From assembly GCF_900110215.1 (NCBI RefSeq), contig NZ_FOCX01000014.1, positions 1-64,000 on the forward strand: a stretch of DNA of 64,000 bases, given 5' to 3'. This document shows positions 24,174-29,893 of this stretch, one piece after another. The DNA comes from Halorientalis persicus (GTDB lineage: Archaea > Halobacteriota > Halobacteria > Halobacteriales > Haloarculaceae). Within the stretch, counting starts at the first letter, position 1. The number at the start of each line of letters is the position of its first letter. The notes beneath the pieces were generated by a model. The model did not search any database. It was given only the letters and a program-made list of their open reading frames with translations, and had not been told where the DNA came from. Both the position numbers and the translations under genes were made by a program.

Positions 24174-24871
24174 TCAGATTAGCTGATTCCATGCGAAGGC
24201 GAACGATTGGAGCCAGTTGTCAGCTGTGTCTCGCTGGGCGTTGCTGAAACAGTTTGAGAACGAAGAGGTACGGCGTTTTACCTCACGAAAGACACGTTCG
24301 ACACTGTTCCGATTTCCGTGGCGTTTGTATCTGAAATCGAGGCCGTGTCGCTGGCAAGCGTCTTTCAGTGGTGCTGCACCATCGACGAGAAACACGGCGT
24401 TCACGAGAACGAAGTTCTCGTGCAGCCCATCAGAACGCTTTGCGTTCTGAGGACGTCGTCCACGTCGTGTTTCTCGCGGAGTTCAGCGAAGAACGCGTGA
24501 GCGAGAGCGTTCGTTCTCACGGGCTCAAGCTTTGTATGGAGTAATTCGTTCGTGTCGGGATCGACCGCAGCGTACAGCCAGTATTGCTCGTCGTTGAGTC
24601 GGATCACGGTCTCGTCAACCGCAACGTGATCCGGACTGCATCCAGTTTCGGGCTGTAGATCTGCCTTGTGAACCCAATTATGCACGGTGGATCGCGCTCG
24701 CTCGACACCGAATATATCAAGAACCGAAACGGTATTCGAAAGCGAGAGTCCGGCGAGATGCAACTGAATACCGAGCTTCATCAGCAGTCGCGGTGTCGCT
24801 TCTCGTTCAACAAACTCTAAGTCGATCTGGTCGGTACTCCCGCCGAGGCGTGTGTTTTCGGGCATGGACAC
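24174..24871 (-). pseudogene. IS6-family DDE transposase, interrupted
   Basis: The first frame (24871-24401) has the N-terminal HTH region and the first catalytic Asp in SPDHVAVDETVIRL. The second (ending 24174) has the second Asp in VFLVDGA and the Glu in SVERVFREVKRRT. The frames are separated by a 56-nt insert (24401-24456) made of two palindromes; removing it restores REKHDVDD-AVFLVDGA. DDE residues and ends are intact, so the insert is the only evident lesion. Confidence 0.85.
24402..24450. repeat. twin-hairpin mini-insert C (in IS6 transposase)
   Basis: CACGAGAAC-GAA-GTTCTCGTG (24402-24422) and TCAGAACGC-TTT-GCGTTCTGA (24430-24450) have 9-bp perfect arms, 3-nt centres and a 7-nt spacer. 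They lie within a 56-nt segment flanked by a CGT repeat that splits the transposase frame. The layout matches the two inserts in tnpB. Confidence 0.85.
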
Positions 24872-25421: not shown

Positions 25422-25988
25422 ATGCCCCAGCCTTGGGACGAATTTCGCGACGACATCGCATCCGCTGATGCAGAGCGCGTCAACCCCGTCGTCGAAGAGG
25501 TCGGCGCGTGGGACATCGACGAGCGCGTTCGATCGTTCGAGGACTGCTTCGACGGTCTGACGACGCTGTACGGGGCGAGCGACGACGGCTACGTGCGACA
25601 GTCCTGTGTCCGCGTCACGGACGAACTCGCCCCCGGACTCGCGGCCGCGGTCAACCTGCAAGACGAGCAGGCATCGAGTCCGGACCGGGAGACCGTCGTC
25701 GACCAGACGGATGCGCTGTGTGGGTTCTTCCTCGAAGCGATGACCGACGAAGACGGCCGTGTCCGACAGTCAGCCAAGCAGGGACTGCAAGACGTCTTCC
25801 GGACCTACGACACGCTGGAGGAGCGCGACACGATCGAAGCGGTTCGGGCAGAGCTAGACGAGATGGCCTCGCGCTACGACGGCAAACGAGGGGAGCACCT
25901 CGAAGAAGCCAAGCGGACCGCAAACGCCAGCCTCGACTCGCCCCTCACGCAGATGGTTCAGGATGTCGCGGCGCGACTCGACGAGTAA
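25422..25988 (+). CDS. HEAT-repeat-like helical protein
   Basis: ATG 25422 gives a 188-residue acidic protein. Paired helices recur with the pattern 'DDGYVRQSCVRVTDELAPGL' and 'DEDGRVRQSAKQGLQDVF', characteristic of HEAT/ARM-type units; such folds serve as protein or nucleic-acid scaffolds. Longer in-frame starts (25242 or earlier) exist, but the added sequence is basic and compositionally different. It is the first gene of GC-rich type, 110 nt upstream of the structured element and the RNA-ligase operon, on the same strand, so a link to RNA repair is possible but not shown. Confidence 0.65.
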   Translation: MPQPWDEFRDDIASADAERVNPVVEEVGAWDIDERVRSFEDCFDGLTTLYGASDDGYVRQSCVRVTDELAPGLAAAVNLQDEQASSPDRETVVDQTDALCGFFLEAMTDEDGRVRQSAKQGLQDVFRTYDTLEERDTIEAVRAELDEMASRYDGKRGEHLEEAKRTANASLDSPLTQMVQDVAARLDE

Positions 25989-26098
25989 AACGCCATCGTC
26001 ACGGGATGGCCCTTTTGTGATCCGGGACCACACCGACAGAAAGTACTTACCACCGTGACAGAAACCGGGGAGTATGTCTCGGCCGCTGGTCGGACACC

Positions 26099-26169
26099 CA
26101 CGCGTCCGGTGAGCGGTTCGCGCGACCGCCTCCCCAGGCCGTAGCGGGCTGCGTCCCCGGACGCGTGGA
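26099..26169 (+). ncRNA. strongly paired RNA element before the RNA-ligase operon
   Basis: CCACGCGTCCGG (26099-26110) pairs perfectly with CCGGACGCGTGG (26158-26169), a 12-bp GC-rich stem. Inside is a hairpin GCGGT/ACCGC (26114-26118/26126-26130) and a weaker second arm around 26139-26150, giving a possible three-way junction. It ends 5 nt before the ATG at 26175. It could be a 5' leader structure, a small RNA or, less likely, an upstream terminator. Transcription is not shown. Confidence 0.55.
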
Positions 26170-26174
26170 TCACT

Positions 26175-26414
26175 ATGAACGAGGAAGATCGCCTTCGACG
26201 GGAGCTTCGCGCAGCGCGCGAGGAACTGGTCCGCAAACAGTCCCAGGGTCCCGCCGATCCGGACGCCTCCGAGAGTCAGCTGCCGCTGATGCCCGACCGG
26301 GACGAGCAGTTCCTCCGGCTGGCGTTGATGTCCGTCGAGGAACTCGAAACGCACGTCGAGCGACTTGAACGAGACCTCGAAGACCTGCGAGACGGTTTCG
26401 ACCACCCGGAGTAA
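26175..26414 (+). CDS. small coiled-coil protein in RNA-ligase operon
   Basis: A 79-residue charged protein with an N-terminal helix (EEDRLRRELRAAREELVRKQ) and a C-terminal heptad-like helix (EELETHVERLERDLEDLRD) separated by a Pro/Asp-rich hinge. It probably dimerises through a coiled coil. The stop is 1 nt before the ATG of the first RNA ligase, which indicates one transcript and coupled translation, so it may be a small subunit or adaptor of the ligases. No family was recognised. Confidence 0.65.
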   Translation: MNEEDRLRRELRAAREELVRKQSQGPADPDASESQLPLMPDRDEQFLRLALMSVEELETHVERLERDLEDLRDGFDHPE

Positions 26415-26415
26415 C

Positions 26416-27282
26416 ATGAAACAGTTCCCGTCGATTCCACGAGCCGCGAACGCGCCGGACGGCCTCTTCGACAGCGGCCACCTCTGGCTGCTCGAAAAAG
26501 TCGACGGGGCGAATTTCCGGTTCCAGCTCCGCCAGTCCGGTCAGTTGCGGTTCGGCGATCGGAGTCGTATCTACGAGACGGCGGACGCCGTTCCCGACCC
26601 GTACCAGCACGCCGTCCGGCACGTCCGGGCGGAACTGGACCGACACGCGCTCCGGGAGGCAGTCGAGGACGTCGAAACTGTCGTGTTCTTCGGCGAAGCG
26701 ATGCACCAGCACGCGATCGACTACGACTGGGAGCGGACGCCGTCCGTTCTCGGGTTCGACGTCTGGTCGGCGACCGAGGAGGGGTTTCTCCCACCGGACA
26801 CCGTCGAGCAGATCTTCGAGCGGCTGGGCCTCCAGCCGGTGAACGCCGTCGAGCGCGAACGCAACGCGCGGGATTTCCACCCCGAATCGTACACTATCCC
26901 GCAATCGGCGTGGTACGACGGGCCGGCCGAAGGCGTCGTCGTCCGGAACAAGCAGGGCCAGCGCGCGAAGCTCCTGCACCCGAACTTCCGGGAGGTCGAC
27001 GACACGGTCCCCGTCGACGGGTCGGCGTCGGAACTGGCCGAGCGATACGCGACCAGACGACGGGTCGAGAAGCTCGCGACCAAGTTCGAGGACAGCGAGC
27101 AGACAGTGACGTTTCAGACACTCTACGAGCAGGTCCTCGAAGACATTGTTCGGGAAGAGCACAAACAGCTCTACCACGGCGAGCAGTCGGTCGATATGAG
27201 CGAGTTCCGATCCGAGGTGGCCGCGCGGACGCGAGCGTTCCTCGACGAGTTCGAGCGCGATCAGGGAGGCACCGACGCATGA
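26416..27282 (+). CDS. RNA ligase (Rnl-type nucleotidyltransferase) 1
   Basis: A 288-residue ATP-dependent RNA ligase. Motif I is LLEKVDGANFRF with the adenylated Lys at about 28; motif III is VVFFGEAM (about 94-101); motif IV is AEGVVVRN (about 172); motif V is RAKLLHPNF (about 184). The remaining C-terminus is helical. The motif set fits the Rnl2/Rnl-like branch that seals nicked or broken RNA. It overlaps the next, second ligase gene by 4 nt (ATGA), and an upstream small coiled-coil gene is 1 nt away. Confidence 0.88.
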   Translation: MKQFPSIPRAANAPDGLFDSGHLWLLEKVDGANFRFQLRQSGQLRFGDRSRIYETADAVPDPYQHAVRHVRAELDRHALREAVEDVETVVFFGEAMHQHAIDYDWERTPSVLGFDVWSATEEGFLPPDTVEQIFERLGLQPVNAVERERNARDFHPESYTIPQSAWYDGPAEGVVVRNKQGQRAKLLHPNFREVDDTVPVDGSASELAERYATRRRVEKLATKFEDSEQTVTFQTLYEQVLEDIVREEHKQLYHGEQSVDMSEFRSEVAARTRAFLDEFERDQGGTDA

Positions 27283-28354
27283 AGGTATATCCGAAGATTC
27301 CGCGCTACGATCACCCGGTCGTCCCAGCGAATTTCTTCGACCAGCAGGATCTGACGCTACTGGAGAAGTTCGACGGGAGTTCGTTCCGGTTCACGCTATA
27401 CGACGACCGCTACGCGGCCCAGTATCCGGATCCAGTCGTCAAGGCTGCCGACGGTGACGGAAGTCTCGTGTTTGGAACGCGCAAAACGATCCGGGGGAGC
27501 CACCGGGATTCGCTCGACGATATCGACGGCGGATTGCACCGGGCCGTCCGCTGTCTCCGGGAGGGAATCGACACCGCAGCACTCCAGGAGCTCCACACGG
27601 AATACGACGAGCCAGTGATCGTCTACGCTGAGAACTTCGTTTACTCGACGCTCGACTACGGATACACGGACCGGTCCCTCCCCGCCCTAGTCGGGTTCGA
27701 CGTCCTGCCGTACTCGGCCATCGAGACCATGACGGCCCCGGGCAATCCCTACGAGGAGACGTTCGATGGATTTCTCGATCTGGTGACAGCCCGGGCTGTA
27801 TTCGATCGGATTCGCGTCCCTGACGTACCAACGAACCGATCATTCACTCCGGCGACGGTTCTGGGCAGTCCCGATGAAGGATTCGATCTCGAGTCGCACA
27901 CCTTCCCACAGTCGTCGCTGGCTGACGATGTTCGCGTCGAGGGTGTCGTGGTGCGGAGTGACGAGTCCGGTCGACGGGTGAAACTCGTCCGGGACGAGTT
28001 CGAGGAACTGAACCGGAACAGTTCGGGCGACAACCGGACGAGGCCGAATCCGGCGCGGAATATGTCGTCGCGACGTACTGTACTCCCGCCCGCATCCGGA
28101 AACAGGTGCGAAAGATGGTCGTCGAAGAGGGCCGGGAGTTCGGTCCCCACCTGAACGACGACCTCTACCCGCGCGTCGTCGAGGACATCTGGGCTGAACA
28201 CTGGCACGATCTGATGGATATGGACGTGGCGTTCACGCCGGTCGACGTCTATCCGCTGGTCGCTAAGCGCTGCATCACCGAACTCCGGAAGATGGAGACC
28301 AACGCCGAACTGAACGATGCCGACCCGACGGAGATCTGGAAACACCTCTCCTGA
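27279..28354 (+). pseudogene. RNA ligase 2, with a frameshift near its end
   Basis: From ATG 27279 the protein shows motif I LLEKFDGSSFRF (Lys about 30), motif III VIVYAENFV, motif IV VEGVVVRS and motif V RRVKLVRDEF, so all nucleotidyl-transfer motifs are before the break. At about 28,013-28,016 the frame shifts. One added base restores EQFGRQPDEAESGAEYVVAT and the helical C-terminus through 28354 (DPTEIWKHLS). The other frame runs on to 28154. The downstream part is well preserved, so the shift is recent or a sequencing error. The 3-to-4 kb region thus encodes two divergent ligases in tandem. Confidence 0.82.
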
Positions 28355-28501: not shown

Positions 28502-29893
28502 ATGGTCGAGTTCGTGAACCGGACGGCGGAACTCGAACGACTCCGTTCGCTCTACGAGTCGGACGACGCCGAACTCGCAGTGGTATTCGGGCGGCGGCGA
28601 CTCGGCAAGACGGAACTCCTGAAACAGTCGCTCGACGGGTACGACGATGCCGTGATATACCAGGCGAGACAGAAAACGAGTACGTTACAGCTGCAACAGT
28701 TCGTCGAGACTGCAGCGGAATCCTACCCGGATCTCGAACGGATCCGGGAGGAGTGGGAGGAGGTACTTCGATATCTCGCCGAGCGGGACGCGATCGTCGT
28801 CCTCGACGAGTTCCCGTATCTCGTCGAACAGGATGACAGCCTGCCGTCCGTACTACAGGCGCTGTTCGACCACGAACTCGACGATTCGGCTGCGACGATC
28901 GTGCTGGTCGGATCGTCGATCAGCATGATGGAGGAGGCGGCGCTACTGGGTAACAGCCCGCTGTACGGCCGGTCGTCGCTGAAGCTCGATATCAGACAGC
29001 TCCCCTTCGACGCCGCGATGGCGTTTTTCGACGAGTCGTATACCGCCGCCGAGCAGGTGAGTACGTGGGGAGTGTTCGGTGGCGTCCCGTACTATCTCGA
29101 GGAGGTGTCGCCGGACGCGACGCTCGCCGAGAACGTGCAGCGAACGATCCTCTCGCGACACGGGACGCTCCACGACGAACCGGACTACGTCCTCCGGATG
29201 GAACTCACGGAACCGACACGGTACTTCTCGATTCTCGAAGCGATCGCGGGTGGCAGTACGAGCCGAAACGAAATCGCGGGGACGACGGGGATCGACTACA
29301 ACCAGCTCTCGAAGTATCTCGATCGACTGTCCCGGTTACGGCTCGTCGATCGACACGTTCCGATCACCGAGCAGAAAGAGCGGAGCAAACGAAGCCACTA
29401 CCGGATCCGTGATCCCTTCTTTCGCTTCTGGTTTCGCTTCGTCTACGGATCGAGCGACCGGTACGACGAACTCGGGACCGACGCCTACGAGATCCTCGTC
29501 GAACCCGAACTGGCGGATTTCGTGAGCCACTCGTTCGAGGCGTTGTGTTGTTCGGCACTCCGGACGCTCTACCCCGAACACACGATCACGGAGACCGGCC
29601 AGTGGTGGTACGAGGACCACGAGGTGGACGCCGTCGGACTGACTCAGGGTGAAACACTGATCGCCGGCGAGTGTAAATTCCAGCAGTCGCCACTCGGCTA
29701 CGACGCGTTCTCGAAACTACAGACACACGTCGACGAACTCAGGTGGACGCCCGAGACGGGTAGCGAACGACGAGAAGAGTACGCGCTCTTCTCACGCAGC
29801 GGATTCAAGCCCTCGGTCGAAGAAGCCGCGACCGAACGGGACGACCTGCGACTGTTCACGGTCGAAGATGTCGTCGAAGCGCTGAAGAGTTAG
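28502..29893 (+). CDS. archaeal ATPase with DUF234 nuclease-like domain
   Basis: A 463-residue member of the archaeal AAA/STAND-like ATPases. Walker A is GRRRLGKTEL (about 32-41) and Walker B is IVVLDEFPYL (about 98-107). A winged-helix region follows (about 250-300; SRNEIAGTTGIDYNQLSKYLDRL). The C-terminal DUF234 domain has the endonuclease-like core EVDAVGL...IAGECKFQ (about 375-400), the E/D..E-x-K pattern of restriction-type nucleases. Family members are often mobile or stress-linked, but their role is unproven. The palindrome cluster upstream suggests tight control. Its stop overlaps the convergent epimerase by 4 nt. Confidence 0.85.
   Translation: MVEFVNRTAELERLRSLYESDDAELAVVFGRRRLGKTELLKQSLDGYDDAVIYQARQKTSTLQLQQFVETAAESYPDLERIREEWEEVLRYLAERDAIVVLDEFPYLVEQDDSLPSVLQALFDHELDDSAATIVLVGSSISMMEEAALLGNSPLYGRSSLKLDIRQLPFDAAMAFFDESYTAAEQVSTWGVFGGVPYYLEEVSPDATLAENVQRTILSRHGTLHDEPDYVLRMELTEPTRYFSILEAIAGGSTSRNEIAGTTGIDYNQLSKYLDRLSRLRLVDRHVPITEQKERSKRSHYRIRDPFFRFWFRFVYGSSDRYDELGTDAYEILVEPELADFVSHSFEALCCSALRTLYPEHTITETGQWWYEDHEVDAVGLTQGETLIAGECKFQQSPLGYDAFSKLQTHVDELRWTPETGSERREEYALFSRSGFKPSVEEAATERDDLRLFTVEDVVEALKS

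Follow-up and report, generated by a model that had tools for sequence, protein, structure and literature searches.

A hairpin RNA overlapped by a short leader ORF precedes a small coiled-coil protein gene, and often RNA ligase genes, in haloarchaea

What is a strongly folded RNA doing directly in front of a gene for a small coiled-coil protein and two genes with the look of RNA ligases? The locus lies in a 64,000-nt stretch of Halorientalis persicus DNA, the whole of which we call the window, and its nearest named relatives are those of Halorientalis regularis and H. salina. A preliminary description of the locus had suggested a self-contained RNA-repair or RNA-processing system, with the RNA as its possible substrate or regulator. 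Here, we compare the locus (Table 1) across haloarchaeal genomes, asking in turn what the ligases are, whether the RNA is real, what it travels with, and what a previously overlooked ORF at its 5′ side suggests about its role.

Table 1. Features of the locus, in window coordinates
Feature	Position	Strand	Remark
TATA-like/BRE promoter-like element, CAGAAAG-TACTTA	26037..26049	+	kept in nearly all loci; putative function
Leader ORF (uORF), MSRPLVGHPRVR and stop, 12 codons	26074..26112	+	leaderless position relative to the TATA-like box
Structured leader RNA	26098..26168	+	conserved fold with covariation; without Rfam match
Outer stem of leader RNA	26098-26109/26157-26168	+	
Inner stem of leader RNA, with bulges	26113-26124/26140-26152	+	
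Tip stem of leader RNA	26128-26131/26136-26139	+	
79-aa small coiled-coil protein gene, Arg-bearing N-terminal helix	26175..26414	+	accompanies the RNA
Ligase A, ATP-dependent RNA-ligase fold (predicted), motif I EKVDG, motif IV EGVVVR	26416..27282	+	
Ligase B, divergent RNA ligase (putative) with C-terminal helical domain	27279..28354	+	frame broken near 28017

The operon and its two ligases

The gene order given in the preliminary description holds: the coiled-coil gene ends 1 nt before ligase A, and the tandem ligase genes share an ATGA at 27279. Two other elements had to be revised. Ligase B had been read as a single open frame to 28354, but a 1-nt deletion near 28017 (28010-28020, CGGAACAG, one G short of the relatives' frame) interrupts it; in relatives the protein is 358 aa and unbroken. 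Because the part downstream of the break is still constrained (dN/dS 0.08 compared to H. salina), we take the break for a very recent event or else an error of sequencing. The upstream gene at 25422-25988 had been called HEAT-like; a profile search gives this call only a weak match below the cut-off (E = 0.014), and the gene is common only to near Halorientalis relatives.

Both ligases had earlier been assigned to the Rnl type. Ligase A scores 69.2 bits against the Pfam RNA_ligase family (PF09414, cut-off 27), and ligase B, at 24.8 and 25.7 bits, stays just short of the same cut-off. In addition to the motifs listed in Table 1, the ligase A of the window has RAKL, with the motif V lysine. Its AlphaFold (AF2) model (pLDDT 90.8) gave 45 Foldseek matches at E <= 0.001, all of them nucleic-acid ligases with RNA ligases at the top, including archaeal Rnl3, T4 Rnl2, and the trypanosome editing ligase; the best were 2vug and 2hvr, at E about 3e-8. 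Judged by profile and predicted structure, ligase A is an ATP-dependent RNA-ligase fold protein (PF09414). The model has the nucleotidyltransferase fold of archaeal Rnl3 (PAB1020, TkoRnl) and T4 Rnl2, whereas the protein is shorter, has only 12-17% sequence identity to them, and by sequence falls outside the Rnl3 family. Ligase B is further removed, with no match to any PDB profile, and its AlphaFold model (pLDDT 49) was too poor for a fold search; the motif residues K30, D32, G33, E118, E221, and K235 are invariant among its relatives and its C-terminal domain is helical. We regard ligase B as RNA-ligase-like on the strength of these sequence features. When the ligase A of the window is aligned with L012, L014, and L018-L028, many haloarchaeal homologues, distant ones among them, prove to have neither the motif I lysine nor the motif IV glutamate (QEQPDG, QELVDG, and AGVVVR, for example), forming a widespread pseudo-ligase branch beside the intact ones.

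A hairpin RNA family and its companion gene

The strong 71-nt fold reported earlier was borne out on recalculation (-61.4 kcal/mol, z = -2.52, with none of 200 shuffles equally stable), and the same fold was found in nine loci, namely that of the window and eight relatives' loci retrieved by sequence. A covariance model built from eight of these nine led to an alignment of 31 haloarchaeal loci in which compensatory changes in the stem are abundant. Standard pairs fill 98.3% of its base-pair cells, 13 of the 27 pairs have changes on both sides, and double-change cells number 66 as compared to 16.4 in shuffles; sliding the partner by 1-3 columns lowers pairing to only 30-49%. Because this alignment had been fitted to the model, we redid the count on a structure-free MAFFT alignment of eight sequences, which was 97.7% paired with a covariation score of 0.292 versus 0.134. 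The inner hairpin is the most conserved part of the RNA, in sequence as well as in pairing. No Rfam family matched the RNA in the window at gathering score, and a relaxed search returned chance matches far below cut-off. The hairpin is thus a real and previously undescribed RNA family, present in a single copy in its own genome.

Several more specific identities for the RNA were considered and set aside. A pseudoknot between a conserved 5′ GGUC and a bulged ACC is contradicted by several loci that, by eye, break the pairing without compensation; for the inner loop, a plain helix register fits the 24/54 covariation better than does a bulged-G or kink-turn form; and no resemblance to tRNA or tmRNA was found.

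Searching with the covariance model yielded strong RNA matches in 22 of 392 haloarchaeal genomes, a sample that includes related genomes, many of them Halorubrum, which inflates some counts. Directly 3′ of every strong match lies a homologue of the small gene; across the 392 genomes the RNA is never alone. The listed distances from RNA to small-gene start codon are 5-10 nt, except at L139, where the scripted start is an ATA at 1 nt, probably mis-called since the homologous ATG is found 6 nt beyond it. Conversely, 23 of the 392 genomes have a strong small-gene match and 22 of these have the RNA, while in the remaining one (G209) a degraded RNA, scoring 25 bits, occupies the corresponding position. 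The hairpin has been lost from an extra small-gene copy in G191 and from one of the copies in Halarchaeum acidiphilum. In the latter species the intact copy is L162; in the second copy (L173:4360-4612) sequence between outer 5′ arm and start codon has been deleted, taking with it the hairpin and also the ATG.

In front of three remote homologues of the small protein (~40% identity; G099, G391, and G377), a diverged RNA occupies the corresponding position; it scores 31.7, 28.4, and 23.1 bits, respectively, is the best match in each locus, and keeps the core GUCCGC ... AAGCGGGC. Around these homologues lie unrelated genes, which by sequence inspection encode, for example, Orc1/Cdc6-like ATPases and secreted proteins. 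Since related operons have both the fold and the small gene, the refutation test set in the preliminary description is passed, and given their co-occurrence in 22 of 23 genomes and the diverged copies in the three remote homologues, we take the RNA and small gene together as the unit. No recognisable RNA was found with the more remote members of the small-protein family that were examined. Weak RNA matches in G412 and G363 have no adjoining small gene and were dismissed as chance. Paralogous pairs of remote small coiled-coil genes occur in G337 (L253/L254) and G347 (L255/L256), and upstream of either pair lies a conserved sequence that is peculiar to the pair and does not resemble the hairpin RNA.

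The small gene has a dN/dS of 0.16-0.28, and its product has invariant arginines in the N-terminal helix and matches no family above any cut-off. We rejected a viral origin for the module, as neither the small protein nor the RNA core has a match among viral contigs; plasmid occurrence amounts to one record, from Halocatena salina. A known anti-phage defence system was likewise rejected, with none of five proteins matching PADLOC profiles.

These properties bear on whether the hairpin might be excised to act in trans, as a small RNA bound by the coiled-coil protein in an RNP (an RNA-repair scaffold, for example), with cleavage just before the ATG turning the downstream mRNA into a leaderless one. 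The arginine-bearing helix and the conservation of the inner hairpin in sequence, beyond that of its pairing, would suit such a particle, and the 5-10-nt gap would make the cleaved mRNA nearly leaderless. We nonetheless consider this unlikely: the RNA holds a fixed place before an ORF in every strong locus and never stands alone, we recognised no bulge-helix-bulge or other processing signal, and the leader ORF and stop placement described below would be left unexplained.

RNA ligase genes are frequent neighbours of the unit. Ligase B occurs in 36 of the 392 genomes and together with the RNA in 12 (Fisher p = 2e-8, counting genomes as independent); in 11 of those 12 genomes it is encoded on the strand of the RNA, no more than 3 kb downstream. 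Adding three relatives from outside the sample (G001, G021, and G050) gives 25 RNA-positive genomes; ligase B is close downstream in 14 of them, G002 and G189 have ligase A alone directly 3′ of the RNA module, and G027 has an RtcB paralogue there (Pfam RtcB, E = 4e-55). Altogether, 17 of the 25 have one of three RNA ligase kinds (the two Rnl types and the RtcB paralogue) within ~3 kb downstream, which upholds the suggested link to RNA ligation, but ligases are not obligatory, since none adjoins the RNA in the other 8 or in any of the three remote loci. The RNA is in turn absent from many ligase B loci and most ligase A loci. Ligase A, matched in 46 of 97 relatives, often occurs alone, and three RNA-less genomes (G263, G101, and G347) have small-gene remnants upstream of ligase B.

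The idea of a self-contained repair or processing system therefore loses its support, because the RNA and small protein also exist without ligases. A narrower proposal is that the RNA serves as ligase substrate or cofactor, being circularised or repaired much as archaeal Rnl3 acts on C/D box sRNAs with closed terminal stems. TkoRnl does circularise terminal-stem sRNAs (PMC9014305), and the 17 genomes with a ligase close downstream point the same way. Too many loci have one partner without the other, however: the RNA has no adjoining ligase in 8 RNA-positive genomes and 3 remote loci, ligase loci of either type often have no RNA, and one substrate would have to serve three different ligase types, so that we judge this proposal very improbable. 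RNA ligases would be the usual, though not the only, genes under the control of the leader.

The RtcB paralogue, with VGVDVGCGM-type motifs, is found in 32 of the 97 relatives and adjoins the RNA module or ligase B at L078 (G027), L075 (G001), L077 (G050), and L192 (G306). In Halorubrum (L128, L134, L139, and L079), the small gene is followed by that of a conserved 89-aa protein (cluster C9) which belongs to none of the known families; ligase B usually comes next after it, and the vicinity often includes a SWIM zinc-finger protein (C5).

A leader ORF and a proposed translational gate

A short ORF running into the hairpin had been missed in the preliminary description. It is 12 or 13 codons long, and its last codons constitute the outer 5′ arm of the hairpin. 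In 28 of 30 distinct loci the distance from an ATG to the junction of outer and inner stems is exactly 36 or 39 nt, and other ATGs within 60 nt before the junction occur only singly. An in-frame stop falls at the junction itself in 28 of 31 loci (TGA 25, TAA 2, TAG 1) and in all three remote loci; it is absent in 3 of the 31, and the start has been lost in G246 (L136, ACG), G001, and G181. The peptides of the remote loci (MVVTPVAPSLF, MQIRTTVVPLSP, and MRSQMTMDLSSGD) are unrelated in sequence, and the RNA around their leader ORFs is wholly different, yet the placement of start, frame, and stop is kept. Strong coding constraint on the peptide could not be shown, pN/pS being only 0.78 as compared to 0.88 and 2.49 in the other frames. 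Because peptide constraint is weak, the position of the ORF appears to matter more than its sequence; unrelated peptides with a fixed stop are as expected if the function lies in reading the ORF rather than in the peptide made.

Haloarchaeal leaderless transcripts begin 23-25 nt from the end of a TATA box. In each of the 28 loci (of 31) with a leader ATG, an AAAGYAYTTA-like box ends at just this spacing before it. Transcription would then begin at or next to this ATG and the ORF would be read as a leaderless message; 72% of mRNAs in Haloferax are leaderless (PMC7531240). With the transcript start so placed by the TATA spacing, the conserved architecture is that of a short upstream ORF predicted to share its transcript with the small gene.

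Only 5-10 nt separate the 3′ arm of the outer stem from the small-gene ATG, which puts the arm within reach of an initiating ribosome, and the leader ORF overlaps this stem by supplying its 5′ arm. In silico, the median cost of opening the small-gene start region (-15 to +12) is 18.0 kcal/mol for the free RNA, as compared to 10.9 kcal/mol with a modelled ribosome at the leader stop (30 loci), figures that assume an E. coli-like ribosome footprint, 37 C, and standard low-salt rather than high-salt parameters. No second, mutually exclusive helix was found. From the 5-10-nt gap and the lower opening cost, we propose that translation of the leader gives ribosomes access to the small-gene start. 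In Haloferax, upstream translation opens blocking structures and coupling is tight at overlapping genes (PMC6728339).

We therefore favor, with moderate confidence, a role for the RNA as the 5′ leader of the operon mRNA, acting as a translation-gated attenuator of the small gene and the ligases co-transcribed with it. When the leader ORF goes unread, the long outer stem would form and close the small-gene start region; a ribosome at the leader stop would cover the outer 5′ arm, freeing the 3′ arm and allowing initiation at the small gene, and coupling would bring the downstream genes along. The likely sensor site is the conserved inner hairpin, right behind the leader stop. Its most likely ligand would be the small protein itself, giving feedback, because the hairpin is kept with the small protein despite differing cargo. 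The structure of the RNA, its linkage, and the architecture of the leader ORF are what the comparison shows; the leaderless start, the working of the gate in vivo, and its ligand and signal we infer. Of the two roles first offered for the RNA, that of substrate fits poorly with RNA and ligases so often being apart, while that of regulator, in cis, is favored by the overlapping leader ORF.

A simpler autoregulatory leader would have the small protein bind the hairpin and repress its own operon, the ORF being an unread by-product of conserved RNA. The constant company of RNA and protein amid different cargo would follow from it, as would the weak codon signature of the ORF, but a by-product should not keep its start, frame, and stop placement in remote loci that differ wholly in the sequence around it, nor does RNA conservation account for the exchange of TGA for TAA or TAG at the leader stop; we hold this version to be quite improbable. 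A more elaborate form of the translation-gated attenuator would make it ribosome-sensing: disturbed translation, for example from cut tRNA or rRNA, would hold ribosomes on the leader and the stem open, inducing the small protein and the repair ligases. We offer this form tentatively and hold it to be unlikely.

Known systems and genomic setting

Leader peptides and translation-gating mRNA hairpins are textbook bacterial devices, and the haloarchaeal arrangement looks like one of their kind, with an RNA that is absent from Rfam. Attenuators of the erm resistance genes and Salmonella mgtQ likewise have a short upstream ORF overlapping a stem that blocks the next start (PMC5118997, PMC8092293). 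The haloarchaeal leader differs from these in being archaeal, in the leaderless position of its ORF, in controlling other genes, in having a conserved inner hairpin right after the leader stop, and in that no second, alternative hairpin was found. Closer in organism are the Haloferax cases of upstream-translation-dependent initiation, or termination-reinitiation (PMC6728339), which follow the same physical principle in the same organism group, and coupled genes typically have the kind of spacing seen between the small gene, ligase A, and ligase B (1 nt, ATGA). Unlike in Haloferax, the upstream ORF here is a leader of 12-13 codons, and a conserved 60-70-nt hairpin region precedes the next start. 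The bacterial Rsr/YrlA/RtcBA RNA repair operon (PMC7790460) offers a looser analogy, also bringing together a noncoding RNA, a small partner, and an RNA ligase in one locus, whereas the ligases here are mainly of the Rnl type and the RNA is apparently a leader rather than a separate gene. Neither Ro60 nor a Y-RNA was noticed among the neighbours.

That uORFs regulate genes in archaea too has been stated in general terms in a tool paper (PMC10219788); in the open-licence literature we found no described case of a haloarchaeal leader-peptide or hairpin translation gate. If true, the ribosome-sensing attenuator would, within the open-licence literature searched, have no documented archaeal precedent as a leader-peptide attenuator. 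A leader ORF that is itself leaderless would be a distinct switch design, since most haloarchaeal mRNAs are leaderless. The signal that opens the switch would moreover point to the repair targets of the ligases in haloarchaea, because the regulated genes are often RNA ligases.

Broken transposase-like ORFs lie on the minus strand at 24174-24871, just upstream of the operon; many RNA loci belong to islands that also contain genes of TnpB-like, PIN/antitoxin, and Orc1/Cdc6-like type. Directly 3′ of ligase B, on the same strand, lies an ATPase_2/DUF234 gene (28502-29893), relatives of which are found near the module in H. salina (G004) and other genomes, in variable orientation.
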